Below are positions 26,393-61,604 of a stretch of 64,000 nucleotides of DNA, in pieces (within the stretch, counting starts at the first letter, position 1; every line of letters begins with the position of its first letter). The position numbers were made by a program, and so were the translations under genes. The notes below the pieces were generated by a model, which worked only from the letters and a program-made list of their open reading frames with translations, had not been told where the DNA came from and did not search any database. This DNA comes from Craterostigma plantagineum (lineage: Eukaryota; Streptophyta; Magnoliopsida; Lamiales; Linderniaceae), in the NCBI GenBank assembly GCA_027422505.1, contig JAPQWV010000001.1, positions 5,270,001 to 5,334,000 on the forward strand, in the 5' to 3' direction.

Positions 26393-26419
26393 ATCGTAAG
26401 ACGTTATTCCGTCTGATCG

Positions 26420-33060: not shown

Positions 33061-33083
33061 AAGACCGAAAGAAGATTGAGCTT

Positions 33084-33454: not shown

Positions 33455-34539
33455 AACTTGAGTTTCGACGCAGCAACCTAGTAACTTGACGTTTCTTTTG
33501 ATTGATCTGTGAGAGTATTATGACCTCGTTTACGAACTGTTCGACTTGCATCTCGTCATCTAGGTTCTTATTGACTAGTTTGGGCGTTTTTATTGCGACG
33601 ATTCGATTATCAGGTAATATACCTTTGTACACGATTGCAAAGCCGCCTTGACCGATGATATTATTGCTGTGGAAATTGTTAGTTGCTATCTGTAGCTCAG
33701 TTTCGCTGAAGATTATTGCTGCATCGGAGGATCTCATTTGGGAAAGCTTTTCTCGCAGAAGAATTCCACCGTTTTGTCGGAAGAACCTTTCCCTCATTCG
33801 ATTTAAGTTTCTTCGTTTGAGTTCCAAGTTCAACCAACAAGATGATAGCATCAGGACAACAATCCCTAAAGAAACCCCTATGTTTATTTTTTCGAAGCGC
33901 AAAACAAGCAAACAATAAGGTCATTACTATTTGCTCCACACATAAAATTAGCAGGGCTAAAAGAGGGCACGATCATATGCGTTATGAACTCTTAGTACAA
34001 GTGACTCGCCGCGAGAACAGCCTTTTGCGCCTTTTATTCCATCTCCCCGGTAACCCTTTGGACCCTTACAGGTAAAACTGCCTGGCGTGTTCTTACAGTA
34101 CTCGTTCCTCTCGCAGTTGTGGAGATTCAATTGGCATTCGTCTATATCTGCGCAGCAAGAAAGAAGTACGGTCAAGGCTGCATATTTTAATAGGCAAAAA
34201 CTAAATTCGATCCAACGAAAGAAGAAAAAGTCGTACCTTTACAACTATCAGTTGTTAGATATGGATTTCCTTGATAACCCGTGGAGCAAGAACATCGATA
34301 GCCATATGAATTGTCTGGCTTATAGCACTCTGAGCGTTCGCTTTTGAACGCATAGCTCGAATTATCCGTTTTCGCCTCTTCACAAGTTCCATTACCGATA
34401 GACCAATCGATAACCATCGGAAGCTTTTCGACGTTGCTCAAGCTCGTAATACTATTGGCCGAGAAGTTAACAGCCCTCTCCTCGGCAACGAAAGCGTAAC
34501 CACATCTGTTTAAATCTGAAACATTCGTGTAATTATCAT
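33455..34539 (-). pseudogene. WAK-A parts 2-3: end of exon 1, EGF exon, membrane segment and N-lobe of the kinase
   Basis: Minus strand. 34539-34237 encodes the second half of the WAK-associated extracellular domain (CGYAFVAEE, MVIDWSIGNGTCEEAKT, CSCSTGYQGNPYL). 34147 to about 33975 is an EGF-like exon, DIDECQLNLHNCERNEYCKN, in which the usual CKC is CKG. 33877-33455 has the membrane segment VSLGIVVLMLSSCWL and the kinase start FSETELQIATNNF, GQGGFAIVYKG, VAIK. The 89-base intron between the first two has GT...AG ends; the next donor looks degraded. A 2-base deletion near 33490 shifts the frame just before L. It joins 56307 upstream and 19911 downstream. Confidence 0.9.
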
Positions 34540-34854
34540 TGTTATCTTTGTATCTTACTGGTTTTGGTTTTTTGGAATAGAGGAGAAAGAAATATTTTTT
34601 GGTAAGAGAAGAGCGACAGAGGAGAGGAGTTTTGTAATTGTTATTTTATTATCACATGTCTCACTCCACTACATCATACCACGTTGATAATTTTATAGTA
34701 GCATATGGAATACTCTAGACAAAGTAACAAGTAGCAAACTAATAATATCTCGAGCATGTTCCAATAATTGCTCCTCGATATCAGGAGATGTCTGCATAAT
34801 ATACGAAGTGGTGTCTGCCATTAGTTTCAAATGAGAGCTTAATGATTTCTAACA
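34540..34854 (-). repeat. Copia X 3' LTR
   Basis: 315 bp. Its reverse complement matches the X 5' LTR at 56308-56622 with about seven differences. The host side carries ATGAT (minus strand), against ATGGT at the other end of X. Confidence 0.93.
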
Positions 34855-35233: not shown

Positions 35234-35870
35234 TGTTGGGAATGGTGGTGGGCCCCGCGGTGGTCAGTGGGCCCCGCAGCGGAACAGGTCTTGGTTTGGC
35301 TCGGTACGATGATCGGGAGAAGTGGGACCCACAGGGTAAATTTGGTGGGACCCGCACAGTAACTACCACGGTAAAAATAAAATTACCGTAAGGTAAGAAA
35401 AACACCAGAACTTTAACGTGGAAAACCCTCTGTTAACGAAGAGGGAAAAACCACGGCCGAGTCGGCAAAATCTTCACTATAGTAAAAATTACAACCCTCG
35501 AATTTTTACTATCTCACTTTTACCACTCGTGTTTACCTCACACCTCTCTGTGGATGTGGAACCCTATCAGTTTCTACCTGAACTGATATCCTCTCAATTC
35601 ACTCGAACTACTTCTCTCTCTATATAGTAAAACTCGAATGAGCTTGTGATGATAATAACTGAAGAATCACCAGCCTATTTATAGATGTCTTCAGCTCTTC
35701 TGGACCGCTCGAAACGGGTGGCCAAGAATGCGCCGCGTCGCCCTTCAATATCAGCCGTTCAGTAAATTATTATAATATATAAAATAATATTATAATAAAA
35801 TATTATATTATTATTTTATTTAATTTTCTTCTTTGGTGGGCTGATGCATGTGGCTGGAAAAATGCCAACA
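35234..35870 (-). repeat. Copia Y 3' LTR
   Basis: On the minus strand it runs from TGTTGGCATTTTTCC to CCCAACA. It contains a very AT-rich stretch (about 35763-35825), where the inversion cut the other LTR. Confidence 0.94.
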
Positions 35871-39989: not shown

Positions 39990-39991
39990 TT

Positions 39992-40554
39992 GTTGGGAAT
40001 GGTGGTGGGCCCCGGGGTGGTCAGTGGGCCCCGCAGCGGAACAGGTCTCAGTTTGGCTCGGTACGATGATCAGGAGAAGTGGGACCCACAGGGTAAATTT
40101 GGTGGGACCCGCACAGTAACTACCACGGTAAAAATAAGATTACCGTACGGTAAGAAAAACACCAGAACTTTAACGTGGAAAACCCTCTGTTAACGAAGAG
40201 GGAAAAACCACGGCCGAGTCGGCAAAATCTTCACTATAGTAAAAATTACAACCCTCGAATTTTTACGATCTCACTTTTACCACTCGTGTTTACCTCACAC
40301 CTCTCTGTGGATGTGGAACCCTATCAGTTTCTACCTGAACTGATATCCTCTCAATTCACTCGAACTACTTCTCTCTCTATATAGTAAAACTCGAATGAGC
40401 TTGTGATGATAATAACTGAAGAATCACCAGCCTATTTATATGTCTTCAGCTCTTCTGGACCGCTCGAAACGGGTGGCCAGGAATGCGCCGCGTCGTCCTT
40501 CAATATCAGCCGTTCATTAAATTATTATAATATATAAAATAATATTATAATAAA
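39992..40554 (-). repeat. Copia Y 5' LTR, truncated at the inversion junction
   Basis: It matches the 3' LTR up to ATAATAAA at 40554. Unrelated copia Z gag sequence (TACCACATGG) then starts. Confidence 0.93.
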
Positions 40555-42760
40555 TACCACATGGCATCATAAAGGAAGAGGCGGTTCAAATCATATGAGA
40601 GGAAGAGGACGAGGCCATCCAAGTCAATTTAAGCCTAATGGTGGAAACTCAAATCAACAAGCCGACTGCCGAATTTGCAAGAAAATGAATCACGACACAA
40701 AAGATTGTCGGTTCAAGTGCAAGAAGTGCCGAAACACCAACCATTCTCAAAGAGACTGTTGGTATCAACAAAAACAGGAGAAAGATGAAGCAAATTTCAA
40801 CAAGACAAAAGCTGTACCGAATAAAACACCATTTGAAGCTTGGCATAAGAGGAAACCCGTTGTTGTCACATGAGATTTTTGGAAGCACTGGCTATTCACA
40901 TATCTCAACACCAAATCGAGACAAGCTCGACACGAAAGGTGAAAAAGTCATATTTATTGGTTATAGCGATGAGTCCAAAGGCTATGGTCTTTATAATCCT
41001 CTAAATTGCAAGCTCGTTATTTCGAGAGATGTAATATTTGATGAAATGGCTCAATGGAGCTGGGGAGAAAATCCTCACAACAATTTTCTTCAAATGATTT
41101 TTTGAACCAACCAAAGGCGAAATAAAAGATGTAGTAGCAACTCCACCTCAAAGTCCCGGACCTTCTTTATCAAATTTCGGAGGAGAAAACTCAGATTCGC
41201 CAGTAAGAAAAACTCGCTCTTTAAGAAATATTTATGAAACTTGCGTATTTGCTTTCTCCACAGTTGAGCCAAGTAGCTTCGAAGTTGCTGCAAAACAAGA
41301 CGTGTGGATCGCTATGGAAGAGGAAATCGTAATGATCGAAAAGATCAAAACTTGGGAATTGGTGAACCTACCGGAGCATAAAGATGTAATTGGTCTCAAA
41401 TGGATTTTCAAAACGAAACTACTCGAAGATGAAAGCATACAGAAACATAAGGCTCGACTTGTTGCAAAGGGATTCGCTCAACAACCAAGAGTGGACTTCA
41501 ACGAGACTTTTGCACCTGTTGTCCGAATGAGACTATTCGACTAGTACTTGCTCTTGCAGCACAACTAGAACTACAAGTATTTCAACTTGACGTCAAATCA
41601 GCCTTTCTATATGGTGAGCTCGACTAGGAAATCTACGTGCAACAACCTCAAGGATTCGAGAGGAAAAGAAGATAAAGTATATCGACTCAAAAAAAATGCT
41701 ATACGGATTGAAGCAAGCTCCGCGAGCATGGAACAAAAAAATTGACGGATATTTTCAAAAGAATGGATTTTCTCAAAGTCCAACGTTCATTCTCTATATG
41801 TGAAGAAAAATGGTGAGAATTTTATGATCGTATGCATATATGTTGATGATCTTATCTATTTAGGAACCAAAGAATCTGAGGTCGAAGCTTTTAAAAGAAA
41901 TATGATGAACGAGTTCGAGATGACAGATTTAAGAGCGATGAAGTACTTTCTCGGAATGGTAAAACAATTCAAAGGTGAAATATTCATTTCTCAAGAGAAA
42001 TATACAGAAGATGTTTTGAAAAAATTTCGTATGGAAAACAGCAAGCCTGTTTCTACTCCCATGTCTGTCAAAGATAAATTTTTGAAATCTAATGGAGCTG
42101 CGAAAGTTGATGGTAAAATATTTCGAAGTCTCGTTGGCTCTCTGATCTATCTCACAAACACAAGGCTAGACATTGTGTATGCCGTTAGTTTGATCTCCAG
42201 ATTCATGAACGGGCCAAGTCAAATTCATTTTTCAGCGGCTAAGAGAGTTCTTCGTTATCTTCAAGGTAGCAAAAATCAGGGCATCAGGTATGTAAAAGAG
42301 AGAAAAAATAATCTGATCGGATTTACTGACAGTGATTGGGCAGGTTCTTTAGATAATCGAAAGAGTACTTCGGGATACTTATTTTGCATGGGCACTAATA
42401 TAATTACCTGGAGTTCGAAAAAGCAAAAGACGGTCGCACTCTCTGCAGCGGAAGCTGAATATCCACCGACACTACTTGCGAGGCGATATGGTTGCGTAGA
42501 CTTCTAGCAGATTTACAGCAAGTTCAAGAACAACCTACAATACTTTATTGTGACAATATATCGACCATTGCTATGACTAAAAATCCGGTGTTCCATTCAA
42601 GGGCAAAACATCCATCATTTCGTCAGAGATATGGTAAGCAAAGGAGAGATCATTTTGGAGTTCGTCAGCACAAATGATCAAGCTGCAGTTACAAAAGCTA
42701 TTTCTACGGAGAAATTTCAGAAGATCAAGGATGAGCTGAATATTGCAAAATTAAGAGGGA
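40555..42760 (+). pseudogene. Copia Z gag end, integrase remnant, RT and RNase H
   Basis: Gag C-terminus with an Arg/Gly-rich stretch and two knuckles, CRICKKMNHDTKDC and CKKCRNTNHSQRDC (40595-40770). Next comes AVPNKTPFEAWHKRKP (about 40812-40858), a C-terminal integrase segment, so gag is joined directly to late integrase. RT follows with frame breaks at 41302-41544 and 41545-41790 and then 41800 onward (VCIYVDDLIYLG). RNase H follows (GFTDSDWAGSLDNRKSTSGY, LYCDNISTIAMTKNPVFHSRAK) to about 42700. Inactive. Confidence 0.9.
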
Positions 42761-42761
42761 G

Positions 42762-43023
42762 TGTTGAAAGTTCTAATTTGCAACTACTAATGCATGTGAA
42801 CAAGACCACAATTGGACAAGCCAACAAACATTATCTAGACAAGACATGGTCAGGCAAGAAAGGCAAAAAGAAAAGCAACATCCATGTTTGTCAATTATGT
42901 GTAGCTAGCTTGTCTACTTAGCATCTATATAAATGTATGCATCTCGTTCAATATTATTGAGTAAGAAAAGCATTATCAACTGAGAAAGTGCCGAAGTACT
43001 ACTTCTCTCCTTTATCTCCAACA
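42762..43023 (+). repeat. Copia Z 3' LTR
   Basis: 262 bp from TGTTGAAAGT to CTCCAACA. Its reverse complement matches 61342-61604. A purine run, TTAAGAGGGAG, precedes it. Confidence 0.92.
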
Positions 43024-43945
43024 CTGGTTAGATCTGTAATAGCAGTCTGCACCACAAATAAAGATTCTTTTCTTGGATCATGGACGTAGGACTGATTACA
43101 ATCCAAACCACGTTAAACGGTTGTCTTGCAAAATTCTATTTCGTAGTTCGTTCAAATTTTTACGTGGTATCAGAGCGATTGCTCTTAATCTGCGCAACTT
43201 GAAGATCGATTTCACACTTGAGAATTGATTGATAATCAATTGGAATCAAGATGTCAGATTCAATTCCGCACAAGCTTCAAGCAGTAATTCCATGGCTTCG
43301 CTCGCTAACGATCCTTATTTCCTCAATCCAAATGATACATCAGGGCAACTTCGTGTTCATGAGCTGCTAGTTGGCGACAATTACATGACTTGGAGCAGAG
43401 CTATGATTATTGCGCTCACGGGAAGAAACAAATAAGGCATTGTGAATGGATAACTCATTGCGCCACCAGCTATAAATGAGGACAAGGTTAGTGCCTGGAA
43501 AAGGAACAATAATATCGTGATTTCTTGGATATTGAATGTTGTTTCGAAGGAGATATCGGCTAGTATACTCTATAGTTCGACAGCTCGTGAAGTTTAGATT
43601 GATTTACAAGAAAGATTTGGTCAGACAAATCGACCAAGAATTCTCCAGCTTAAGAAGGATCTAGTCAATCTAGCTCAGGGCGCAAACAATATTCCAGTTT
43701 ATTTTACCAAGCATAAGACACTTTGGGATGAATTGTCAAGTTACCGGCCATCTTGTCAGTGCCTCTGTGGCGGCATCAATCCTATCAAAGCGCACCTTGA
43801 GGAAGAATATGTTCTCACTTTTCTGATGAGATTGAATGATTCATACTCGCAGGTCAGCAGACAGATCTTACTCATGGACCCTTTCCCATCCATTAAGACT
43901 CTTCGCATTGTTGATCCAAGAAGAAAAGCAAAGAACTATGGTTGC
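43024..43945 (+). mobile_element. Copia V remnant: LTR end, primer site and gag fragment
   Basis: After the Z insertion point comes the end of another LTR (to about 43164) and a perfect tRNA-Met site at 43165-43177. A gag fragment (43229-43945, stops inside) then follows. It resembles copia W gag: SLANDPYFLNPNDTSGQLRVHELLVGDNYMTWSRAM against W SLASDPYYLSGNDTAGH. Homology ends near 43945, at LLIQEEKQR. Z inserted into its LTR. Confidence 0.8.
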
Positions 43946-44079
43946 TGGACATCCTCCTTGGGGAAGAAATTGGGAATATGTATTGAAAATAATTCATGAC
44001 ATTCACAGTTTAGCTTGGTGGAATAAGATGTTACCTTTTTGTCGGATTGTTGTTGGCATCGTTTTAAACCCTCTGCAGG

Positions 44080-44156
44080 TTTCCTATTGAAGAAAAGTGC
44101 AAAAAATAATGGATGGAGTAAAAGGTGGTTCGTCTTGAATGAAAAAACGGGAAAAG
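44080..44156 (+). pseudogene. Orphan exon of a dynamin-like PH domain (DRP2-type)
   Basis: The segment reads GFLLKKSAKNNGWSKRWFVLNEKTGK. This matches my memory of the first strands of the pleckstrin-homology domain of plant dynamin-related proteins 2 (vesicle scission at the plasma membrane). It is bounded by a pyrimidine-rich acceptor (CCTCTGCAG) and a donor (GTGAGAAC), so it looks like one true exon with flanking intron sequence. No neighbouring exon is seen before 43945 or after 44230. It is a stranded or captured gene fragment, not a gene. Confidence 0.5.
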
Positions 44157-45758
44157 TGAGAACTTTTAGACTTCGGCTAGTTACCAAGAGATATGTTTTT
44201 CCCCCATATGGCTTGCTTTTCATGTGAATGCTGAAGATGAATATGTATTCTTATGTTACACTTCAATTTCTCATTTATTTGAATCTATGTATGGGTGAAT
44301 TTAAATTTTCTATGTTATTGATCTCTTCTGTCGTTATATGTAGTTTAACTATATCTAACATTAAGGTAATCTCCGGTTCATGTATAAATAATCCAATAGA
44401 TGCGACGTCGCATCCATTGGCCACGACGTCGTGTTTATTGGTTGCGATTTGCTCGATTTTGTTAAAATTTTGCAAAATCACCTTTTTTATTCATATTAAA
44501 AAAAGAATAGCATTATTTTTTATTAAAAAGCCCGATGAGGTGTCAATGCCCTTTTCTTCTGGCTTGTCGCACGAATATTGGAGTATTCTGTAATATTGTA
44601 TTCAATTATTCACGTATGCATTTGACGAGTGCTTTCGCTTTTAAATATTTTATCTAGACAATCCAATCGCATAAAAATGAGTGCAACAAGGAAATTGATG
44701 TGAGAGTGAAAAAATGACAAACTAATGAGAACAAACTGAATTGAACAGTGAATAGGAGAAACCTATGTTCACAAGCGGGCACGAATTTCTTTTAGTACAT
44801 ACGCGGTGATGAGAAAACCTATGTTCACAAGCGGGCACGAATTTCTTTTAGTACATACGCAGTGATGATTATTATATACGTGTAAAATTTATTATGACTG
44901 TATAACAAAATACCTATTCCTGTTCATATATCCACTGGTCAGATCCAAGGTTCAACAAAGATCAACACTATAAAAACATCATGAATAACACATTTATTCT
45001 GAAAGCAACCCTAAATATATCGTTAAAAGTATTATCACAACACGTGAATATTGAATAATCATCCAGTCTATTTCCTTTTGGAATGTTGTCAATAATGACG
45101 GCCACTGCTTTGTTATAACATGCTATATAATATATAAACGATGAACATGCTAATATATAATAAACACCAATGGCCACCCTAGACATTATAATACAAACTC
45201 CTGAAAACTGGATTTAATAAAGAAATAAACTTATGTTTACATATTAAAAAACATTAATATTAAATAGTCTATCTATAAGTGACAGTCAATAATAACGCAT
45301 AAAACAAGGGGAATTTTCATTTCAGGTCCCGCAAAAATTTTCACTTAAGATTCAGGTCCGAAAAAAATTTAGTTTTTTTTAAAAAAAAATAGTTTTAAGG
45401 ACCCGATTCTGCATACCACTTCATTGTTCTGCAGTACCACACAACGATCATCCGATACCAGTTTATATAACATTTATAACACTTTTTAAAGTTTAGGTTA
45501 ATCTCTAAATTTTACAGAAATTGTGTTCTTTAAACGAAGTTTTTTTCTAACATGGTGAGAAACCTATTTTAAAACTTTCATGAATTAAAATATACCCTAA
45601 AAACAAAATAAATCACGCATGCAGATGCAATAATTGAATACTAAATTTCCACGAGCCAAAAGATATCTACCATCAATATTAGTGCAAAACAACTCGTCTT
45701 CCAACCACAGACGAAAGAACAAAAAAACAAGTAAAATCTGTAAGAAGAAGAAAAAACA
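44157..45758. other. Intergenic, WAK-B upstream region, no further gene
   Basis: The first part may be intron of the PH-domain fragment. There is a 55-bp tandem duplication at 44756-44866. The rest is AT-rich with no recognisable coding pattern. The WAK-B promoter must lie here, but no convincing TATA box was found at the expected distance from 45759. Confidence 0.5.
44756..44866. repeat. Tandem duplication of a 55-bp unit
   Basis: Two copies starting GAGAAACCTATG (44756) and GAGAAAACCTATG (44811) differ by one inserted A and one substitution. Confidence 0.95.
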
Positions 45759-48700
45759 ATGGCCTCGAAGAAGCTCATCACAAACACTACTACAATTTTT
45801 GTGCTCATTCTTCTCATCTCATCGACGACAGAAGCGCTTTACAACTTCACAATAACGAAACAGAACTGCAGAGATCGCTGTGGAGACATACAAATTCCTT
45901 ACCCATTCGGCGCCGGCGATGGGTGCTACGATGGCCACAGTTTCTTAACCACCTGCAACGAAACGGCTGGGCCCAACGGCTCGACGACGGCTAAGCTTTT
46001 CTTGCAAAACACTTCGATCGAAATCACAGACATATCCCTCGACGGTCAGCTCACGCTTTTGCAGTACACGTCCCACGAGTGCTACAGCCGCAACCGAACT
46101 AGGGTTTCGGACAACGCCCCCTTCATCGAACTGCCGATTTCTCTTACGGTGAACTACACCGCCAACAAGTTTACCATCGTCGGGTATGTCGATTATCGAA
46201 TGATGATGAATGACCACTTTACTTAAAAGCTTAAGGTTAAAGGGAGTATCATTTTTCTTAATTTTATTTTATATTTCCAACACGCTCTCTCGGGTTTAAG
46301 CTGATTTTTTTAATATCGAGCTTCAGAAGCTTAATTTTCTTAAATTTGTATTCTAATTCCATTTGTGACGAAGACTCGAGCATCCTCCCAACAACCACTG
46401 ATCGTAGATGGAGACTGAAACCTGTGTGGGGGTGAGAGTCGTACGCATGATCTTTGGCATGAGATCTATACAATGTTAAATGACCATTTTCCTAACAGCT
46501 TAAGCTTTAAAGGAGAATCATTTTTAAATTTTATATATATTATAACCAACAAACGATCACTCCACCTAAAAAGCTTAAGCTTGTAGGGAATGTATTTATT
46601 TGTTAACGTTATATATTTTATTTCAAACACGCTCCCAACGTTTAGGTTAATTTTTTCTTATTATCTAGCGTTAGAGGTGTATTTTCTTAAATAGGTGGTC
46701 CTGAGAATTCATACCTATGACTTCTTTGGTCCTTGAGCTCTAATACCATATTTAACGACCAGTCCACCTAAAAAGCTTAATCTTGTAGGAAATGCATCAT
46801 TTTTTTTTTCTAAAATCTTATATATTATATTTCCAACAGGTGCGATACTTACGGCTTCGTCACGGGCATTCGACTGGACCGTGACTACCAGACTGGCTGT
46901 ACCGCCATGTGCTATAGGAAGGACGACCTGATCGACGGCTCGTGCACGGGCTTAGGGTGCTGCCAGACTTCCATACCTAAGGACGTTTGGAGGGTCGAAG
47001 TGAGCTTGCATACCTACGACAACTACAGCCGAGTTTGGGACTTCGACAAATGCGGCTACGCTTTCGTCGTGCAAGAAAGCGCATTTAATTTCTCAGCGGC
47101 TAATCTAACGAACTTGAGGAGCGTAGGAAAGCTTCCCATGGTCGCCGATTGGGCGATGGGGAACGGGACGTGCGAAGAGGCGAAGACGAACAGTACGAGC
47201 TATGCGTGTAGGAGCGAGTATTCCGATTGCTATAAGCCCGGGAATGGGTATGGCTATCGATGCTCTTGCTTGAAGGGTTATGAAGGAAATCCATACCTAA
47301 TCGACGGTTGTAAAGGTATTTGCTTTTTTTTTTATCGAGTTTCTGATTGCGTTCAGCTGTCACTTTATTTAAAAGCTTAAGATTGAAGGAACATATCATA
47401 TTATATATTTTTTTCCAGCACGCTTCCCCAGGTTTATGCTGATTCTTTCTTATATAACCATAAACGTGTAATTTTTCTTAAATGACTGGCCGTGAGATTC
47501 GTACCCGATGCTGCCTTGTTTTGCAGATATAAACGAATGCGAGCATAATCTACATAACTGCGGAAAGAACGAATATTGTAAGAACGAGGCTGGCAGTTTC
47601 ACCTGCAAATGTCGAAACGGATACCACGGAGATAGATCCAAAGGCGGGGGAGGATGTTACCGCGACGAATCGATCATATTTAAACTCGTAGCAGGTAAGT
47701 TAAAATCGAATCCAATCTGCTCGGGAAAAATTCTTGCAAGAAAGGCGTTTAACACTATGCTTTAACCGATTTACACAAATAGGGATTGCGGTAGGAATCG
47801 TCATGCTGATGCTAGCGGCCTGTTTATCGTACGCGTTGCTCAAGCGAAGAAGGTTGGCCCGAAAGAGACAGAAATTCTTCCGCCGAAACGGCGGGACATT
47901 GCTGCAAGAACAGCTCGACCGAGGAGACAAAACGCCGGGGAATATGAAAATATTCAGCGAAACCGAGTTGCAAAAAGCGACGAACAACTTCCACAAGAGC
48001 ATGATCATCGGGCAGGGAGGGTTCGGGACAGTGTACAAAGGCACGCTGCCCTATAGTAATAATCCATTCGTCGCCATAAAAAAATCCAAGCAGGTCGAGC
48101 CCAAGCAGGCGAAGCAGTTCGTCAACGAGGTGATGATACTCTCACAAATCAACCATCGAAACGTCGTCAAATTCCTCGGCTGTTGCGTCGAAACTCCCGT
48201 CCCTTTGCTCGTGTACGAGTTCGTCGAAAATGGTACGCTCTTCGAGCACATACACGACAGGGAAAGGTCGCGTCTTCTTACATGGGAAGTACGTTTGAGA
48301 ATCGCCGCCGAGGCGGCCAATGTGCTTTCTTACCTACACTCATCGGCTTCTACACCGATCATACACAGAGACGTGAAGTCTGCGAACATACTCTTGGACC
48401 ATTCGTTCGCCGCTAAGGTTTCAGACTTTGGCGCTTCGAAATTGGTCCCTTTAGATCAGATGCAACTTACAACTATGGTTCAAGGGACTTGGGGTTACTT
48501 AGACCCCGAGTACATGCAGACTGGGCAGTTGACTGAGAAGAGCGACGGTTACAGCTTTGGGGTTTTGCTGATCGAGCTTTTGACAGGGATGAAGGCGTTG
48601 AGCTTCGAAAGGGAGGATATGGAGCAAAACTTGGCGTACTTTTTCCTTTCTAAGATGAAGAGAGATCATTTGTTTCAAGTGCTCGACGACAGCATAATCG

Positions 48701-49101
48701 TCGAAGAAGGAAACGAAGAGCAGATAAGGAGGGTTGCTTCACTCGCCAGGAGCTGTATTTGCGTGAGGGGCGAAGATAGGCCGATCATGAAGGACGTGGC
48801 CATGGAGCTCGAGGGACTGCGAAGGCGCGACGAGGGGTCGACGAAGCACTCGTGGGACCCACGACGCGGTTGTTGTAGTAAGGAGGAGAATGAGATGGAG
48901 TCTTTGCTAGGGTTTATTGGATGTAATAATGATGATGGCATGTCGACTGCTACGTTCGACGGTGTGAAGAGTTATTACACCGATACGACGACGACGATGG
49001 TTGAAGGAGATTTTACCAACGTCGACGTCTTCTCCTCGCCGAGCATGGACAGTTGTCTATATCGAGGTGGTCATGACGGTGGACTATGTTCGAATGTGTA
49101 A
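45759..49101 (+). CDS. WAK-B: wall-associated-kinase-like receptor kinase, apparently intact
   Basis: Exons 45759-46183, 46840-47315, 47527-47694 and 47783-49101 have GT...AG introns and join to 795 codons. Signal peptide about residues 1-26. The galacturonan-binding WAK domain starts CRDRCGDIQIPYPFG, and many N-glycosylation sites follow. The WAK-associated Cys-rich part is in exon 2. The EGF-like exon 3 is DINECEHNLHNCGKNEYC. Membrane segment about 357-378. Kinase GQGGFG (433-438), VAIK (Lys about 456), HRDVKSANILL (about 551), DFG (about 571), GTWGYLDPEY. The product should sit in the plasma membrane, bind cell-wall pectin and signal by Ser/Thr phosphorylation. Subdomain IX reads DGYSFG where the family has DVYSFG. 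Tandem paralogue of WAK-A. Start: first Met before the signal peptide. Confidence 0.92.
46184..46839 (+). repeat. WAK-B intron 1, built from a short interspersed repeat
   Basis: 656 bp with donor GG/GTATGT and acceptor TTCCAACAG/G. WAK-A has no intron here; its exon reads straight through GTGGGGTGC. The intron holds at least four copies of a core like CCACCTAAAAAGCTTAAGC (near 46211, 46491, 46553, 46753). Several are followed after some 50-60 bases by ATATTTCCAACA, and the last such end is the splice acceptor. One internal part has CTCTAATACCATATTTAACGACC. The repeat class (MITE, SINE or other) is not clear. Confidence 0.8.
47316..47526 (+). repeat. WAK-B intron 2 with another copy of the same repeat
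   Basis: This intron is 211 bp, against 89 bp at the same place in WAK-A. It contains CACTTTATTTAAAAGCTTAAG (about 47360) and TTTTCCAGCACGCTTCCCC (about 47411), matching the intron 1 repeat. Here the repeat enlarged an existing intron. Confidence 0.7.
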
Positions 49102-49109
49102 TTAATATA

Positions 49110-49523
49110 TAAGAAAATTGAATTGTTCGTAGACACAAATATTTACGTGGTTCGGATCATAACAATCCTACATCCACGGTGCAACTCGAAATCCTTTATT
49201 GATGATCGATCACAGATTACAATCGCACAGAATTTGACACTCTACGGTGTATGTATCTTTTATGTATATAAAGAAAATGAAGAAATCAGTACATTTAAAG
49301 AGCTTTCGCGCTAAGGTCCTCAACCAATTAGAACGCGCGCTTCCCTTAATTGAATCGTCGTTCCTTGTGCCGAATTCATAAGTGAGTCGAAGGACCTCTT
49401 TTAAATGAAACACGCTTTATCAAATATTCATGCGATTCTTTCTCAGTTGAGCTCTTTGCTTTCTGCTGCATGGTTCGAAACCTTCATGGCTCTCATGCTC
49501 ACTTTCTTGTTCTGATTTCAACA
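49110..49523 (-). repeat. Copia W 3' LTR
   Basis: 414 bp, matching the 5' LTR outside the LINE insertion with scattered substitutions. The minus-strand polypurine tract GCGGGGGGA precedes it (49524-49532). Confidence 0.92.
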
Positions 49524-49539
49524 TCCCCCCGCAAGATGG

Positions 49540-52500
49540 ATGGTACAAATTGCATACAGACATCTTGAACAAGAGCTGCTGCAATGCAGGACCACTGAGG
49601 GGCTTAGTAAAGATGTCTGCGAGCTGATTTCCCGATCTAACTGGCAGCAGTTTGACAGTCCCACAAGCAACATGGTGCCTTATAAAATGGCAATCGATTT
49701 CAATGTGTTTAGATCTCTCGTGGAATTTGGGGTTGGAAGCTAGCTTTAAGGCTGACAAGTTATCACAGTAAATGACTGGTTTCTGATCTGTGCTCACTTA
49801 GCTCTTTCAGCTACAGCTGCTCCCAGTGCCCTATACTCTGCCTCCGTGGAAGATCTTGACCCCGTGGCTTGCTTCTTCCCTTTCCAAGTCACCAATGAAT
49901 CTCCTAGAAAAGTACAAAAACCAGTCACTGATTTTCTAGTGTCTTGGCATGTTCCCCAATCTGCATCTGAGAATGCTCTTATGTTCGGGCCCTGATTTGA
50001 AGATATGAATATTCCTTGCCATGGTGAACCCTACAGGTACCTGAGCAGATGATGCGCTGCCATTAGGTGTCTTGTTCGGGGCTGACTCATGTACTGACTT
50101 AGCTTATGCACAACATAAGCAATGTCAGGTCTTATAAAAGTGAGATAGAGTAGACGCCCAACTATCCTTATATACTGAAAAGGGTCTGAAAGTGGCTATC
50201 CATCATTGGCAGATAGCTTATCACTTGGGTTCATTGGGGTGGACAATGGCCTGGCATCAATGTATCCAGTGTCTGAAAGTAATTGCAATGTATACTGCCT
50301 TTGTGTGAGGTGAATCCCTGTCTCCCCTCTTGCTACCTCTATCCCAAGGAAGAACTTCAATTCGCCTAGATCATTGACCTTGAAGCATGTACTAAGGAAG
50401 GCTTTTGCCTGCTGTAATGCATGTACTGATGATCCTGCCAGGATGATATCATCCACATATACCAGCCGAATCAGTAGCTAATCTCCCTTCCCTTTCAAGA
50501 ACAGCGTGTGGTCTGATTGTGTCTGGGCAAATCCATAGTCTTTAACTGCCTCTATGAACTTCAAATTCCACTATCTTGAGGCCTGCTTGAGTCCACATAA
50601 TGACTTATGAAGTCTGCATACCAGTTTGTTCTTCTATGTTCCAGTATGGTCTGAATGATATCCTAGTTTCTCCTTTTCTGCTCGAGTACAGTCTGAATGA
50701 TATCCCTGTGGTATGTCCATGTATACCTCTTCTGTGAGGTTGCCATTTAAGAAGGCATTGTTAACATCCATTTGTGCAAGGTTCCAGCCTAAATTTGCTG
50801 CTAGAGATAATACAATCTTTATGGTGTTTGGCTTGGCAACCGGGGAAAGGTGTCAATGTAATCAACACCCTCCCTCTGATCATACCCCTTAGCTACGTGC
50901 CTTGTGTTTTTCTACTTGTCCATTTGAGTTGAATTTGGTTTTGTACACCCACCTGCACCCAATTGATTTCTTTCCTTGTGGGAGTGTACTCCATGTTTGA
51001 CTTTCCTCTAATGCTCTCAGCTCTTCATCCATGGCAGATAAGAAATGTGGTGTGAGGTTCTGATAGGACAGAAATCTTGATATTGGGTACAATGTGTTCC
51101 TTTCAGTAGCTTGATTGCAGTGATAGTCCTGTAGATAGGAAGGCTTTGGGTACAATGTGTTCCTTTCAGTAGCTTGATTGCAGTGATAGTCCTGCAGATA
51201 GGAAGGCTTTCTCAATTCTCTACCAGACCTTCTATGTAACATGTGGGGCTGGTATATCCCTTGGGTTTCAGTTCCTTGCAGGTCAGCCCCCTGACTTCCT
51301 GGATGCATTGAAGAAGTTTGAACTGGATCTGATTCACTTAAGCATGGTTGATATGAGCTCTGAGGGATGTCAGCATCTGGAGATGGTGATGCTGATGCGA
51401 AGTTCTTCTTCCACAGTAGGATCAGTGGTTGAGGCAAGAGGTCTGGGCATCACTTGTGAGGAAAACTGATCCCTTGCTTGCTCTGCAGCATCCTTGCTCT
51501 TGAATGGAAAAACAGCTTCCTCAAAGTGCACATCTCTAGAAACAAAAACTTCTCTTGTTGATACATCCATAACTTTGTAACCTTTGATTCCATTTGGGTA
51601 TCCAATGAAGATGAATTCCCGACTCGTGGATCAAATTTTCTCTTAGCTGCTGCAGAGTAGAACAGAAACAAAGGCAGCCAAAAACTCAAAGAGAGCTATA
51701 CTCAAAAGGCCGTTGATAAAGCAAATCATAAGGGCTCTTATTATGCAAGTGCACCGATGGAGTTCTGTTAATAAGGGCGAGCTACATTCATGACGTGCTG
51801 ATGCTTTCTCTCAACAATCGGATTTTGTTGAGGAGTTTGTACACAAGATAAGTGATGCAAGATTCCATTACTCTTGAACAGATTTGACAGATCAAACTCC
51901 TTAGCATTATCAGGTCTAACTGTCTTAATTCTACTCTTAAATTGTGTTTTAACTAAGGCTATGAAGGATGGCAACACTGATCTAACTTCTGATTTATTTC
52001 TAATCATATAAAGCCAAGTGAATATTGAGTGACCATCTACGATGGTTACAAAATATTGGTGACCTAAGTGACATGGAATGTGAAAGGGTCCCCAAACATC
52101 ACAATGAACCAGATCAAAAGCTTGGCAAGCAGTAATATTATTATTAGGAAAGGAACTCCTTTTCTGTTGTGCAAGTGGACATATTTTGCAAAATGAAAGA
52201 TCAGACTTGTTTACATGCGTCAATGAACCTTTAAGCATATATAAAACTTTACTAGAGGGGTGGCCTAGCCAATTGTTACAAAGATCCCCTGACAACTTAT
52301 TCATGTAAACAAACTTATTCAGATCAGCAGTATTTCTGGTAGCAGCATCTGCCTTAATGACATATAAACCTGCTGTGAGCCTACCCTTGCCAATCATTTG
52401 ATGCAAATGGTCCTGTATCATGAAGCCATTAGCATCAAAACAGAATTTAGACCTACCAGTGTTTGCCAAGAAACTCATTGAGATCAAATTAAAACGAAAC

Positions 52501-53834
52501 TTAGGCACAAAAAGAACATCAGTAAGCAAGCCTGACTGGTTAAGCTGAAATGTTCCAGCTTTGTTAACTCTTATAAGAGTTATATGGGAGTATTACCTTG
52601 GATTCCTCTAGCTTATGCACATCATATAACAGACTATGGTTACCACAAACATGCCTCGTGGTACCAGTTTCCACCAACCACAGATTTGGATCAGTGAGTC
52701 CTGACAGATTAGAGGAGAGACGGATACCTGTTTTGCTCTCTGTCTGGGATGATATTTCCTCAATGTCTTGCGCTGTTCCCGTTGTAGAGTGGCTCATTAA
52801 GGTCCTCAGTCCCTGGATTTGATGGGGAGTCGGCCGAATTTGGACCAATGCATCCTTCTGGCTCATGTGACTTCTTGAATGTGCTCCACCTTGAGCAGAG
52901 CCCACTGTGATCTGATTCATTCTACCCTCTTTCTGGTACTCTGTCTAAAGCCTAGAGGGAATCCATGAATCTGATAACATGTCTCAATGGTATGTCCTCT
53001 TTTATGGCATATGGGCTTTGAGCTGTCTTTCCTCTGATTGAAATTTCCCATTCTACCTGTACCTTGATCATTTCTGGCTGCCAGCATTGCTAAGTTGTTA
53101 GCTTGATCTTCTTGACTCAGAGCCATGGACCTTTGCTTCTCCTCTTGCACGAGTAGGGAAAACACTCTGTTGATGTATGGCATTGGGTCCATGAGCAATA
53201 TCTGTCCTCTTATTTGTTAGTATGACTCATTCAATCCCATCAAAAAAACAAGAACATACTCCTTATCCAGATGATCCTATGCCTTAACTCCACTGCAAGT
53301 GCATTGGCAAATTGGTCGATAGTTTGTCAACTCGTCCCGTAATGTTTTCAACCGAGTAAAGTACACTGCAATGGTGCTTGATCCTTGAACCTGGTTTACC
53401 AAATCCTTCTTCAATTGAAAGATTCTCGGCTTATTCGTTTGTCCATACCTTTCTTGAAGGTCAATCCACACATCTCTGGCTGAGGAATTGTACAGAATGC
53501 TCGCCGAGATTTCCTTTTAGACCGAGTTCAAAATCCAAGAAATTATGATGTTGTTATTTCTTTTCCAAGAATTAACTTTGTCCTCATCATTCGCTGGTGG
53601 TGGAACAAGATCGCCATTCACGAATCCTTCCTTGTTCCGACCTATAAGCGCGATCATTACAGCTCGACTCCAAGTCATACAAGTGTCACCATTGAGCTGT
53701 TCTTGAACCAATAAATGACCCGCAGTATCATTTCCACTGAGGTAATATGGATCACTTGCCAGTGAACGCATCGTCGGCGGATTGATTGCTCCTACATTCG
53801 GCGTTTCTCCCCATTTTGTTACTTCACTCGCCAT
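49540..53834 (-). pseudogene. Copia W gag-pol, decayed
   Basis: Minus strand: gag from 53834 (SLASDPYYLSGNDTAGHLLV), breaking at 53517 and continuing to about 52920. The protease site reads WLVETGTTRHVC instead of a DSGA/DTGA loop. Integrase lies at 52529-51700 (CKICPLAQQKR, LVHCDVWGP, TPQQNPIVERKHQ). RT is at 51437-50196, with DDIILAGSS preceded by a stop. RNase H is at about 49850-49420 ([30 protein letters not shown]). A 63-bp tandem duplication at 51085-51210 repeats KPSYLQDYHCNQATERNTLYP in frame. Confidence 0.9.
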
Positions 53835-53878
53835 TTGAACGAAAAATCAAGATGAACGCAGCTTCAAAATCGAGCTAA

Positions 53879-53891
53879 TGCTCTGATACCA
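53879..53891 (-). promoter_or_regulatory. Copia W primer binding site
   Basis: Minus-strand TGGTATCAGAGCA abuts the 5' LTR end. Confidence 0.88.
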
Positions 53892-54564
53892 TAAGAAAAT
53901 TGAATTGTTTGTAGACAAATCTTTACGTGGTTTGGATCATAACAATCCTACATCCACGGTGCAACTCGAAATCCTTTATTGATGATCGATCACAGATTAC
54001 AGTCGCACAGAATTTCACACTCTATGGTGTATGTATCTTTTTTTTTTGGTAGAATGATTATCATTTACCACAGCACCAAGGCCACAGTTACATCAAGTAC
54101 ACACTCTATGCATCACCTAATAGTGGAAAGTTACAAACTCGTTGAAATAAAACTGTATTAGCAGCATTCTTCCTTTTACACACCAACTTGATTCTCCACT
54201 TCATTTCACTGCCCAGTATGTGAAAGATTTGGTCCACTGATCTTGCTTCCATGCCATGTACTCTTCGGTTCCGCTCGCTCCACAAGTGATACACCAAAGC
54301 TGCGTATATAAAGAAAATGAAGAAATCAGTATATTTAAAGAGCTTTCGCGCCAAGGTCCTCAACCAATTAGAACGGGCGCTTCCCTTAATTGAATCGTCG
54401 TTCCTTGTGGCGAATTCATAAGTGAGTCGAAGAACCTCTTTTAAATGAAACACGCTTTATCAAATATTCCTGCGATTCTTTCTCAGTTGAGCTCTTCGCT
54501 TTCTGCTGTATGTTTCGAAGGCCTTCATGGCTCTCATGCTCCCTTTCTTGTTCTGATTTCAACA
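53892..54564 (-). repeat. Copia W 5' LTR, enlarged by a LINE fragment
   Basis: It matches the 3' LTR on both sides of the insertion at 54038-54303. Confidence 0.92.
54038..54303 (-). mobile_element. 5'-truncated L1-type LINE fragment in the copia W 5' LTR
   Basis: On the minus strand it begins in coding sequence AALVYHLWSERNRRVHG, like the C-terminal end of plant L1 reverse transcriptase proteins. It then runs through a stop and ends in a poly(A) tract (plus-strand T run 54038-54047). The W 3' LTR shows the site without it. A few LTR bases were lost at the junction, and no clear target duplication is seen. Confidence 0.85.
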
Positions 54565-54569
54565 ATATA

Positions 54570-55703
54570 TTATATTTTTCCCCAAAAAAATGTTTGCTTG
54601 GATATGAAGCCGTACGAGGACAACCTGTCTTAAAAAGATCTATGGCTTAGTCATCATAGAGAACATTTAGTTAGTTGCTGGTTCAGATTTTCAAATGGGG
54701 TTTTCTCTATCAGCTATATGCCATGGTAAAACGCTTATCTATGAATGTAATTGAAGTTCATTTGTACTATATAGATACGCAATTTAAAACGGTTTTTGTA
54801 CTAATGGACTTAGGAACAGGGCATTTGAGTAGAAATATCATCATTTTCGCTCGGAGCAAAACGAGCAAGAAATAGAAAGAAATTATGATTGAAGTTTCGA
54901 TGTCGACAACTATGTTTAATTAACTCCACGAAACGTTCAAAATAAAACATAAAATTATGTAAGTGGACACCTAACCGTATATATATTGTAATGACATGTA
55001 GGAGCGAACTGAATTTGACCTGGCAAAGTTTTTTTTTTTTTTTTAACAACCTGGCAAAGTTTATGATAACGAAAACTGAATTATAATGCATTTCTTTTAT
55101 CAATCTCTGGTCACAACTCCGACGAGGTAGTTTCGTTGCATCGAGTTGTTGGTATGTCGTATATGAAGAATTAAAAAATCATTATTACATTACGTTTTAT
55201 TACTTGTTCAGTTGAAGCGTTTGTTGTCGTCGGTTTTTGTTTATTAGAATTGGGACTGATGGACTTATTCTAGCGAATCAGTTGATATTATTTAGGAATC
55301 TATTCCACATTTTTTTAAATACATACGTTAACTTTTATATATTAGTTGACATCGTATCGTAGTATAAAATTGTCTTCTCTGCATGAGATCCACTCCCGCA
55401 AGAGCATCCTCATACATAAGTTGCCAGCTAGAAGTGATGCATGCATGCATGAAATGATCAATGAGCATATATTTTAATTACTAGCGTTGTTTTACGACTC
55501 ATTCCGTCCTTTTGTATAATTATTTTTACCGTACGACGACCACACCAACCTTCCCTTTATCCTTCATTTCTTCGGTAAAAGGGGGTAAATAACCTGCATA
55601 CTTTTTCACTATAAATAAAACCTACACACTCCAACCCTAAGCCACAAAAGCAAAAAAAAAAAAAAAAGAAAGAAAGAAAAAGGAAAAAAGCATTACTACC
55701 ACC
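54570..55703 (+). promoter_or_regulatory. WAK-A upstream region
   Basis: AT-rich, non-coding sequence between copia W and the WAK-A start. Before W inserted it was the whole spacer between WAK-B and WAK-A, about 1.1 kb. No other gene or repeat was recognised apart from poly-T/poly-A runs near 55030 and 55655. Confidence 0.6.
55610..55617 (+). promoter_or_regulatory. WAK-A TATA box
   Basis: TATAAATA in CACTATAAATAAAACC lies 87 bases before the ATG at 55704, leaving room for a short 5' leader. Confidence 0.7.
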
Positions 55704-56307
55704 ATGCTAACATTGATTCTAGCTTTGATATTTACACTAACCTCGTCAGCGATCGATAATCTCAGTGTAGTTTCAGCATCAGCAATTAGCGGCCCATATA
55801 CCAACTTTTCGATAGCCAAACCAAACTGCGTCGATCATTGTGGAGATATAAGAATCCCATTTCCATTCGGCCTCAAAGACGACAACAAAAACTGCTACCA
55901 CAATGACAGTTTCTTCGCGACATGCAAGCATACTTCTAGCCCGCCTAGGCTGTTTGTACAGAATTCCTCGATTGAAATTACGAATATATCTCTCGATGGC
56001 CAGATCACGGTCTTGCAGTTCATATCGAAAGATTGCAGGAACTCGCGTTTCTAGCAATGACCCGTTTATCAAAATGCCTCAACCTTTCATTGCAAACTAC
56101 ACGGCCAACAAGTTGACAGTCGTGGGGTGCGACACAAATGGCGTCGTCTATGGGAAACGTCTCAATCGCAAGTACGCAGCGGGCTGTCTTTCTGTGTGTT
56201 ATTCGAAGGAAGATTTGATCGAAGGGTCGTGCACGGGCGTGGGGTGTTGCCAGACTTCTATACCGAAAGACGTTTGGGACGTTGGGTTGAGCTTGATTAG
56301 TTATGGT
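55704..56307 (+). pseudogene. WAK-A part 1: signal peptide and galacturonan-binding domain
   Basis: The start MLTLILALIFTLTSS is a signal peptide. The pectin-binding WAK domain follows (NCVDHCGDIRIPFPFG, LFVQNSSIEITNISLDG). A frameshift near 56040 moves the reading to another frame (NDPFIKMPQPF, CYSKEDLIEGSCTGVGCCQTSIPKDVW). Sequence ends at SLISY, where copia X starts. The next residues (DNYTNV, then CGYAF) are on the minus strand from 34539. Unlike WAK-B, no intron splits VVGCDT. Confidence 0.92.
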
Positions 56308-56622
56308 TGTTAGAAATCATTAAGCTCTCATTTGAAACTAATGGCAGACACCACTTCGTATAATATGCAGACATCTCCTGATATCGAGGAGCAATGATTG
56401 GAACATGCTCGAGATATTATTAGTTTGCTACTTGTTACTATGTCTCGAGTATTCCATATGCTACTATAAATTTATCAACGTGGTATGATGTAGTGGAGTG
56501 AGACATGTGATAATAAAATAACAATTACAAAACTCCTCTCCTCTGTCGCTCTTCTCTCACCAAAAAATATTTCGTTCTCCTCTATTCCAAAAAACCAAAA
56601 CCAGTAAGATACAAAGATAACA
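56308..56622 (+). repeat. Copia X 5' LTR
   Basis: 315 bp from TGTTAGAAATC to AGATAACA. It matches 34854-34540 in reverse complement at about 98 percent by eye. Confidence 0.94.
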
Positions 56623-56624
56623 AG

Positions 56625-56637
56625 TGGTATCAGAGCT
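56625..56637 (+). promoter_or_regulatory. Copia X primer binding site
   Basis: TGGTATCAGAGCT lies two bases after the LTR and ends at the gag ATG (56640). Confidence 0.9.
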
Positions 56638-56639
56638 CC

Positions 56640-59600
56640 ATGGCAAATACTAATACTAACGCTGCCAGTATCAACTACATGATGTGTCCGCGTCTATCAA
56701 AGACGAACTATGACAAATGGTCCATACACATGAAAGCGTTGCTTGGATCACAAGATGCTTGGGAAGTCGTCGAGTCCGGGTATACAGAACATGAAACACT
56801 GGCAGGCTTATCTGGGAACCAAGTAAAAGAGCTGAAAGAGTCACGCAAGAAAGACAAGATTGCGCTCTACCTGATCTACCAAGCCGTAGACGAATCGGGT
56901 TTCGAAAAAATTGCTGGCGCAAAGAGTTTCAATGAAGCATGGGGGATTCTTGAAAAGGCGTATCAAGGAGCGAATCGAGTCGCAGGTTCGGCTAAAAACT
57001 CTTAGACGAGAGTTTGAGACGCTGTGGATGAAGGAAGGAGATAACGTATCTGATTTCATACGAAGGTCGAAACCGTTGCCAATCAACTCAAGAGGAACAG
57101 TGAAGAGGTACCGGAGAACAAAATAGTCGAAAAAATTCTGCGATCCTTAACCACTGATTTTGACAGCATCGTATGTGCCATTGAGGAATCGAAAGATCTC
57201 TCTGAGATGACTGTGAATGAGTTGACAAGTTCTCTAGAGGCTCATGAACAGAGGAGGGCATCTAGAAAACGTGAAACGACAGAAGAAGCGTTGCAGGCGA
57301 AGTTGAAAATAAAATACGACAATCCCAACGAAGATGACGACAGAAGCCGACAACTAGAAAACTATCGAGGTCGAGCAACTTATCGAGGACGTGGAAGATC
57401 AGGAGGAAGAGGAAGAGGTTCATCAAATGAAGGCAACATAGAAAGCAAAAATCGCTCGTGGAACACATATCGAGGCGGACGAGGTCGAGGTAGACACAAT
57501 AAGAGGAATGTTCAATGTTACACGTGCAAGAAGTATGGCCATATTGCTGCTGAATGCTACTTCAACGAACAAAGCAGCGAAACGAAAGAGCATAAGAAAG
57601 CTGAGGAAGAGATCCTGCTGATGGCGAGCGAGGAGGACAACTCACATAAAAGTCAAGAATGGTACCTCGACAAAGGGGCGAGCAACCATATGAGTGGCAA
57701 TCGAGATATGTTCGTGGAGATACAAGAAACGAAGGGAGGTCAAGTAACCTTCGGTGATGCATCCAAGGTTAAAGTCGAAGGTCATGGAAGAGTGAAGATT
57801 CGGTGCACGAATGGTCATCACAAATACATATCTAACGTCTAACGTGCCAGAAATGAGAAGCAACATACTCAGCGTTGGGCAATTAATTGAACGAGGCTTC
57901 ACGATAATCATGAAGAATAACATGATGGAAATCAGAGACAACGACAAGCTCGTGGCACGGGTGAGTATGACCGAAAATCGCATGTTTAAATTAAAGATCG
58001 AACATGTGCAGGAGAAATGTCTAAAGGTGACCGAAGATAGTGAAGTAAAGCTTTGCCATCAACGGTTAGGGCACCTAAATTTCAACAGCGTGAGGGATCT
58101 AGCAAACAAGACAATTGTAAATGGCATGCCATATTTAGGAACGGCGGATGGCATGTGCGAAAGCTGCATCATTGGAAAGAATGCAAGAAATCCTTTCCCG
58201 AAGGAAACAATGTTTCAAGCCAAAAGAGTCTTGGAGCTAGTTCACACGGACATATGTGGACCAATTACACCGGAGTCGTTCAGTAAGCATCGATATTTCC
58301 TCACATTTATTGACGATTATTCTAGGAAGACTTGGATATATTTCTTACGAGAAAACTCAGAAACTTTTGTGATGTTTAAGAAATTTAATGCCCTAGCTGA
58401 GAACGCAAGCGGGGAGCGGATAAAAGCTATCAGATCCGACAGAGGCGGCGGGTACACGTCAAAAGAGTTTCTAGCATTTTGTGAAGAAAACGGGATTCGA
58501 AGGTATCTCACGGCTCCGTACTCTCCTCAGCAAAACGGCGTAGTGGAGCGGAAAAATAGGACGCTTCTCAATATGGTCCGTTGTATGCTAAAAAGTAAAG
58601 AAATGCCGAAGAAGTTTTGGGCAGAAGCAACTCGATGTGCTGTATACTTGCAGAACCGCTGCCCGTCAGTGAGCTTGAAGGGAAATATCACACCGCAGGA
58701 AGCTTGGTGCGGCACAAAACCTTCAGTCGGGCATCTACGAACCTTTTGAAGTATAGCATACGCTCACGTTCCGGATGGTCAGCGAACGAAGCTAGATGAT
58801 CGGAGTATTAAGCTCGTCTTTATCGGTTACGATGAAAGGTCAAAGGCTTATTATCTTTTAATCCTAATACTAACAAAGTTATTGTAAGTCGTGACGTACA
58901 GTTTGACGAGAATAGCTGCTGGAACTGGAAAATGGGACATACACACATCGAAACAGATGTTGGAAGGATACCACCTCTAGCGACCAATCCATCTGACGAA
59001 GATGAGACGACAACCGTGATCAACCAACCGGAAGATCCTATGTCAGATGAAGACGATGAGCCCCTACAAGGAAGAACGAGGACCGTGGCAGATCTTTACC
59101 AAACGTCGAATAATATGAACCTCATATGCCTACTCGCCGATGCAGAAAATGTTACATTCGAGGAAGCTACGAAGGATGAAAAGTGGAGAAAATCGATGAG
59201 GGAAGAAATGGAGGCCATCACGAAGAACAAGACCTGGGAGCTCGCAAACTTACCGAACGGACAAAAGGCGATAGGCGTGAAGTGGATATACAAAAAGAAT
59301 CTAAACGTGAAAGGAGAAGTGGAAGGATATAAAGCAAGGCTCGTAGCAAAAGGATACAAACAAAGGCTGGAATCGACTACGAAGAAGTGTTTGCGCCAGT
59401 TGCGAGGATGGAAACAATCCGACTGCTAATGTCGATTGTAGCTTATCGAAAATGGGTCATATATCAAATGGACGTTAAATCAGCGTTCCTGAATGGAACA
59501 ATAGAAGAAGAAGTTTACGTCGAGCAACCTCCCGGCTACAAGCAGATCGGACAAGAGGAGAAGGTGCTGAAATTGAAGAAAGCCCTTTACGGGTTAAAAC

Positions 59601-60313
59601 AGGCTCCAAGAGCTTGGAACACGAGAATCGATACATACCTCAAGAACCGAGGTTTCAGCAATGCCCCTATGAACACTCTTTGTACGTGAAGGTGCGACAA
59701 ACAGATATCTTATATGTTGTTTTATATGTAGACGATCTAATATTTACAGGCAATAACGAAAAGATGATCGCCGAGTTCAAGTCTGAGATGATGACCGAGT
59801 TTGAAATGAGTGACCTAGGAAAAATGTCATACTTCTTGGGCCTCGAGGTGAAACAGGAGAAGACCGGAATTTTTGTGTCACAAGAACGATACACGCTTGG
59901 GATCTTAGATAGATTTGGAATGAACGACTGCAATCCAACAAGCACACCCGTTGAGTGCGGGACAAAACTGTCCAAGTTCGACAAAGCTGAAAAGGTAGAT
60001 GGAACTATGTATCGAAGCGCTGTTGGATGCCTACGGTATTTAACGAGTACAAGGCCGGATATCTCTTGTGGAGTTGGTCTTGTAAGCCGCTACATGGAAG
60101 ACCCAAGCGCTACTCATTGGAAGGCTGTGAAAAGAATATTTCGATATTTAAAGAAGACGGCGTCTCACGGGTTGTTCTATCCTTGGACAGACGATTTTGT
60201 AATCACAGGATATTCTGATAGTGATTGGAGCGGAGATACGGACGACCGCAAAAGCACGACTGGATATGCATTCTTTGCTGGCAATACAGTTTTCGGTTGG
60301 GCATCCAAGAAAC
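56640..60313 (+). pseudogene. Copia X gag-pol, frameshifted
   Basis: Gag starts at the first ATG (LSKTNYDKWSIHMKALLGSQDAW) and breaks near 57000. The Arg/Gly-rich region with knuckle CYTCKKYGHIAAEC is at about 57360-57560. Protease WYLDKGASNHMSG has Lys in place of the active-site Ser. Integrase is at 57811-58749 (HQRLGHLNF, CESCIIGK, IRSDRGGGYTS, YSPQQNGVVERKNRT). RT is at 59200-59800 (MDVKSAFLNGTIEEEVYV, VLYVDDLIFTG). RNase H starts GYSDSDWSGDTDDRKSTTGYAFF. Frame changes occur near 57010, 57840, 58750, 59390 and 59680. Confidence 0.92.
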
Positions 60314-60388
60314 TGTTGGCATTTTTCCAGCCACATGCATCAGCCCACCAAAGAAGAAAATTAAATAAAATAATATTATAATATTTTA
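60314..60388 (+). repeat. First 75 bp of the copia Y 5' LTR, separated by the inversion
   Basis: TGTTGGCATTTTTCC onward is the reverse complement of 35870-35796. It is the part missing from the LTR at 39992-40554, with a four-base TAAA shared by both pieces. Confidence 0.92.
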
Positions 60389-61084
60389 GTTCCTTGCACG
60401 TTCATCTTAGAGTCAAAACTTGCTCCAAGGATTGATTTGAGGATTTGGTGAGGCGCTCTTCATGAACTTGTAATGAGCTTGTTAGTTCACGATAAGTGAA
60501 CTTGGTCAAGTCCTTCGACTCTTCGATTGCGGCAACAATATAGTCGTATTTAGAGGGAAGACTCCTTAGAACTTTTTGGACAATCTTCTTCTCTTCAATA
60601 GTATCTCCAAGGTCCTGATTTGATTGACGATCTCAGCAACTCGAGTGAGATAGACGTGCATGGTGTCGTTGTCTTTCTTCGCCAAGTTATCGAATTCTCT
60701 CATTGGAGTTTGATTGACGTTACTTTTTCGTTTCCTTGAAAACTTTCTTTGAGAACATCCCATGCTTCTTTGGACTTTTTAATGCCATGAATTCTGAGAT
60801 AGATGGTTTTGCTTAGACCTTTTTGGATGTACCTTAGAGCACTAGCATCCTTCTTCCGATTTTTGTTGTACTCTTTTTGTTGTGCGTCTGTCCATTCTTC
60901 TTCATCGGACTCGCCTTATCTTCTTGAGGTGGTGGCCCTGCACACGTTTTTTCAACAACCTCCCATAGAGCTTGCGAGATAAACAACGTTTCCATTTGAC
61001 TACACCAATAGTCGAATTTTCTCCGTCAAAGATTGGAATTTGATTCGGAGTGTAAGAGAACATAGTCGTCACTTGATTTGCCAT
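60389..61084 (-). pseudogene. Copia Z gag, N-terminal part
   Basis: Minus-strand MANQVTTMFSYTPNQIPIFDGEN, then pieces in other frames including REFDNLAKKDNDTMHVYLTRVAEIVNQIR. These are typical of copia gag (DUF4219/UBN2 type). At least two frame changes occur (near 60960 and 60600). Confidence 0.85.
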
Positions 61085-61320
61085 TTCACGTATGCATGCT
61101 CTATGTTGGGTTATTCACCAATAATTTTATGCGTGACTTTGTGAGGTGATATAAAGTGGTTGCTTGAGAAAAAGCGCGTGTATGAAAAAGAGAGACTATG
61201 TGTAGTTGAAGTGTAAGGTGCTTGCTTGGAAATAAGTTTCACGTGTATGGAGAGGTGGTTGCTTGGTGTATGAATATGGGAGGGTGAAGTCGATGCCTTT
61301 AAATTTTTTTTTAATTTTTC

Positions 61321-61336
61321 ATTTGCTCTGATACCA
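61321..61336 (-). promoter_or_regulatory. Copia Z primer binding site
   Basis: Minus-strand TGGTATCAGAGCAAAT, five bases after the LTR end. Confidence 0.85.
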
Positions 61337-61341
61337 CAATT

Positions 61342-61604
61342 TGTTGGAGATATAAGAGAGAAGTAGTACTTCGGCACTTTCTTGGTTGATATTGCTTTTC
61401 TTACTCAATAATATTGAACGAGATGCATAGATTTATATAGATGCTAAGTAGACAAGCTAGCTACACATAATTGACAAACATGGATGTTGCTTTTCTTTTT
61501 GGCTTTCTTGTCTAGATCATGTCTTGTCTAGATAATGTTTGTTGGCTTGTCTAATTGTGGTCTTGTTAACATGCATTAGTAGTTGCAAATTAGGACTTTC
61601 AACA
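61342..61604 (-). repeat. Copia Z 5' LTR
   Basis: 263 bp, reverse complement of the LTR at 42762-43023 with a few differences and small indels. Confidence 0.92.

Follow-up and report, generated by a model that had tools for sequence, protein, structure and literature searches.

A plant inversion with one breakpoint at the centre of an A/T palindrome in a copia long terminal repeat

Introduction

How was a segment of chromosome turned around in the middle of a cluster of nested retrotransposons, and why did it break where it did? A 64,000-nt stretch of the Craterostigma plantagineum genome (contig JAPQWV010000001.1; hereafter the window) raises this question. It contains no N and carries wall-associated kinase (WAK) genes amid nested copia-type retrotransposons, as indicated by domain matches. 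Three of these elements, here called X, Y and Z, are copia-type according to their pairs of long terminal repeats (LTRs), their copia gag, integrase or RVT_2 domains and their short target duplications. The gag domain of Z was assigned via relatives of Z. In the sequence as given, an internal segment of the window is inverted. One of its two breaks lies in the loop of an A/T palindrome within the 5' LTR of Y, and the other lies in the gag region of Z. The position of the first break suggests that the LTR may have broken at the tip of a hairpin or cruciform.

One inversion restores four interrupted features

Self-comparison of the window revealed that the LTRs of X are inverted relative to each other, as are those of Z. 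It also showed that the Y LTR match of 35234-35799 with 39991-40554, on the same strand, stops short of the LTR start. The missing first 75 bases are found at the far end of the inverted segment, on the opposite strand, where 74 of the 75 are identical to the unbroken Y LTR. Flipping 40555-60388 back rejoins four features, namely the Y 5' LTR, X around the Y insertion, the gag region of Z, and WAK-A. After the flip, the pieces of WAK-A are colinear with the paralogue WAK-B, which serves as a ruler. Because these four broken features become continuous together, the segment is one simple inversion in the sequence as given. Coordinates are collected in Table 1. The target duplications are nearly intact for X (ATGGT / ATGAT) and Z (CTGGT / CTGCT), with four of five bases alike in each pair, and imperfect for Y (GAAAC / GAAC).

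Table 1 Features of the inverted region in window coordinates
Feature	Position	Strand	Remarks
Inverted segment	40555..60388		19,834 bp; flip-back reconnects Y LTR, X, Z and WAK-A
Junction 1, Y LTR/Z	40554..40555		0 bases in common
Junction 2, Y LTR start/Z gag	60388..60389		TA common to both sides
Split Y 5' LTR, main part	39991..40554	-	ends in left arm of palindrome and part of loop
Split Y 5' LTR, first 75 bases	60314..60388	+	carries other palindrome arm
Y 3' LTR, unbroken	35234..35870	-	
Palindrome in unbroken Y LTR	35779..35819		19-bp arms, 1 mismatch, 3-nt loop 35798-35800
X 3' LTR	34540..34854	-	
X 5' LTR	56308..56622	+	inverted relative to X 3' LTR
Z LTR	42762..43023	+	flank CTGGT
Z LTR	61342..61604	-	flank CTGCT
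Z left piece	60389..61341	-	leader, gag start
Z right piece	40555..42761	+	gag zinc knuckle; remnants of integrase, reverse transcriptase, RNase H
WAK-A 5' part, to X insertion	55641..56307	+	GUB_WAK_bind; colinear with WAK-B
WAK-A middle part, past X insertion	33460..34539	-	colinear with WAK-B
WAK-B, paralogue serving as ruler	45744..49101	+	GUB_WAK_bind, Pkinase

The junctions point to plain end joining

The initial annotation had proposed one simple inversion, its origin by end joining and its independence from recombination between repeats; all three proposals are borne out. The order is restored by one flip, and homology is small or absent both at the junctions and between the sites, as in a simple inversion by non-homologous end joining. 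Between the 501-bp flanks of the two break sites, the best matches, one of 11 identical bases and one of 19 bases at 84%, each have an E value of 0.21. The break sites have no common repeat.

The same annotation saw TA/TAAA shared by the junctions and suggested that microhomology had driven the joining. A shared TA is indeed present at 60388/60389, while nothing is shared at 40554/40555. Over both junctions there is a net gain of 4 bases: TAAA is doubled in Y if the TA is assigned to Y; if it is assigned to Z, the doubled bases are AA in Y plus TA in Z. When both sites were joined at random, at least 2 bp were in common in 20% of 20,000 trials. The TA is thus at chance level and microhomology tells little, so that its role as driver is not upheld. 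No bases were lost from Y at the break, and a few codons may have been lost from Z. The 4-base gain fits short overhangs that were filled in and then end-joined.

The Y break lies in the loop of a palindrome

A break in an A/T-rich part of the LTR had also been noted. This is correct, but the location is more specific, and the palindrome had been overlooked. With the two Y ends placed side by side, the break falls after base 120 of the joined stretch. The joined site is a mismatch-free, all-A/T inverted repeat with 19-bp arms and a 3-nt loop formed by bases 119-121, so that the break is central in an A/T-rich palindrome. Counted along the LTR itself, the palindrome centre is at about base 72. 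Among the mismatch-free inverted repeats of the window with a spacer of at most 10 nt, the joined Y site has the longest arms. The runner-up is an (AT)n tract (17695-17728, arms of 17). With one mismatch allowed, the arms reach 22 in the joined Y site and 20 in the (AT)n tract. In the unbroken LTR, the palindrome sits in the longest A/T-only run of the window (65 bp).

Leaving out the split copy, 14 of the 64,000 positions lie no more than about 2 nt from the midpoint of an inverted repeat with arms of at least 16 (one mismatch allowed). In first-order Markov controls (n=10), arms of at least 19 were found in none, and five had no arms of at least 14. Folding was predicted for single strands, with 60-nt windows (n=12,789) used for ranking. 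The joined Y centre (60 nt) has a predicted energy of -11.9 kcal/mol, a stability that 0 of 10 windows with similar A/T content attained. For the unbroken LTR the value is -8.6 kcal/mol, and the predicted stem spans the palindrome.

The two Y LTRs (60314-60388 versus 35796-35870) differ by one base within a palindrome arm, and the broken copy is the fully matched one. This difference may reflect hairpin-templated correction or chance; two copies do not decide. As for the other palindromes of the window, the (AT)n tract, taken as 17691-17731, is the other strong one, and no break is known there. A spacer-free inverted repeat with 14-bp arms, one mismatch and a G/C-rich centre is located at 44393-44420.

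Candidate mechanism and alternatives

Since the break is at the centre of the longest-armed mismatch-free inverted repeat of the window, breakage at the palindrome tip is favoured. In the proposed sequence of events, the Y LTR would have broken at the tip of a predicted hairpin or cruciform, a second break would have struck Z in ordinary DNA, and end joining would have sealed the segment in the wrong orientation. We regard this course of events as moderately probable. Several observations weigh against it. The arms are short (19 bp), and their freedom from mismatches hinges on the single base that differs between the Y LTRs. A break anywhere in the 65-bp A/T run would reach the centre within 2 nt about 1 time in 13. 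The predicted fold of the joined site is strong without being unique, as 0.42% of the 12,789 windows are as stable, mostly with G/C. For the unbroken LTR this proportion rises to 3.7%, and folds at least as stable were predicted for 5 of 200 shuffled versions of a 135-nt piece of the LTR. The Z site is predicted to be unstructured (60 nt, -2.3 kcal/mol, with 76.5% of the 12,789 windows as stable). Finally, this is a single event, the palindrome was sought after the break was known, and the inversion is read from the assembled sequence. A hairpin at the Z break was considered separately and is ruled out by the lack of predicted structure there.

The inversion could be real and yet owe nothing to the palindrome, if two chance double-strand breaks were end-joined and the A/T-rich location of one of them was incidental. 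The ordinary DNA at the Z break and the plain end-joining character of the junctions would both agree with this, and A/T runs may break for different reasons. It leaves to coincidence a break exactly central in the longest-armed mismatch-free inverted repeat, where about 14 in 64,000 positions are so placed, and we judge it rather unlikely. An artefact of assembly or cloning, either a mis-joined contig or an inversion in the cloning host at an unstable palindrome, is less likely again. Palindromes are difficult to clone and sequence, according to the available part of one report (PMC4057610), and nested repeats endanger assembly. However, the two junctions are reciprocal within a few bases and are at unique, non-homologous positions in a window without N, whereas assemblers would be expected to fail mostly at shared repeats.

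The two other routes are of much lower probability. Replication-based template switching or microhomology-mediated joining could be read from the TA common at junction 2 and from the four duplicated bases. We hold it to be very improbable, as 2 bp is at chance level, the other junction shares nothing, and inserted or additional copied segments are absent. Recombination between inverted repeats would have had the X or Z LTRs as substrates, and inverted LTR pairs are present in the window. These pairs owe their opposed orientation to the inversion and do not mark where it broke. The breakpoints are elsewhere, in the Y LTR and in the Z gag, and their flanks are non-homologous. An inversion via the X or Z LTRs is thus ruled out, with a probability that we consider negligible.

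Comparison with known systems

Breakage at a palindrome tip followed by end joining is a known kind of event. Human palindromic AT-rich repeats (PATRRs) are described, in the sections of PMC4940405 available to us, as breaking at the centre and being end-joined with small losses, always palindrome to palindrome. The Y site resembles the translocations t(11;22), t(8;22) and others treated there in its A/T-rich palindrome, its central break and its end joining. It differs from them in having only 19-bp arms and in being an inversion in a plant. Two further differences count against a palindrome-tip break: both human partners are palindromes while the Z partner is ordinary DNA, and a few bases are usually lost in the human cases while four were gained here. 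According to the accessible text of PMC7999016, the risk increases with the length and identity of the arms and as the spacer becomes shorter.

Inversion O7 of Drosophila subobscura, as far as the consulted portion of PMC7584159 goes, is similar in three respects: one of its breaks lies within a palindromic AT-rich repeat, it was sealed by end joining, and bases at its ends are duplicated. O7 is a complex, multi-break event at chromosomal sites; the present case has two breaks, four duplicated bases and a palindrome borne by an LTR. In plants, excerpts of PMC3527283 describe Arabidopsis BREVIPEDICELLUS deletions, one of which has its break in the 4-nt loop that caps a hairpin; junction homology was absent there except in one allele. 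Those are deletions in mutagen or T-DNA mutants, and the hairpin involves a CT-rich sequence; here the product is an inversion. A weak preference of plant LTR elements for palindromes as insertion targets, mentioned in an extract of PMC6911290, is a separate matter. Among the open-licence papers listed for the terms used, we found no plant inversion at a palindromic AT-rich repeat and none with a palindrome supplied by an LTR. A search of viral_contigs with one 24-base pattern from the Y LTR gave 0 matches.

Other features of the window

In Z, a zinc-knuckle stretch runs directly into sequence that matches the integrase end (40755-40860), and the protease and most of the integrase are apparently absent. 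The kinase part of WAK-A is split by a second large insertion of about 13.5 kb (19904-33459), within which 19904-20249 and 33089-33415 form a direct repeat at 93%. A protein search with WAK-B scored 7978 proteins. Among the best 120 of these, the highest identities are 66-67% (Paulownia, Forsythia, Abeliophyllum), no protein is identical, and those with a named organism were all recognised as coming from flowering plants. Another direct repeat, of 6362-8697 with 12874-17292, consists of three blocks at 90-95% identity, and its second copy is about 2.3 kb longer internally.

Significance

Small plant inversions rarely allow their origin to be read at the level of single bases. Here, the nested elements reveal the order before and after the event, with one break at what may be the tip of a hairpin. 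A broader idea, which we put forward with considerable doubt, is that Y may represent a plant copia family in which every LTR contains an A/T palindrome able to form a cruciform. Each insertion would then plant two fragile sites, and the inversion would be the product of a self-spreading PATRR-like sequence that broke at its tip and was joined to ordinary DNA. If copies of this LTR family do repeatedly break there, a transposon would be spreading fragile sites through the chromosomes.
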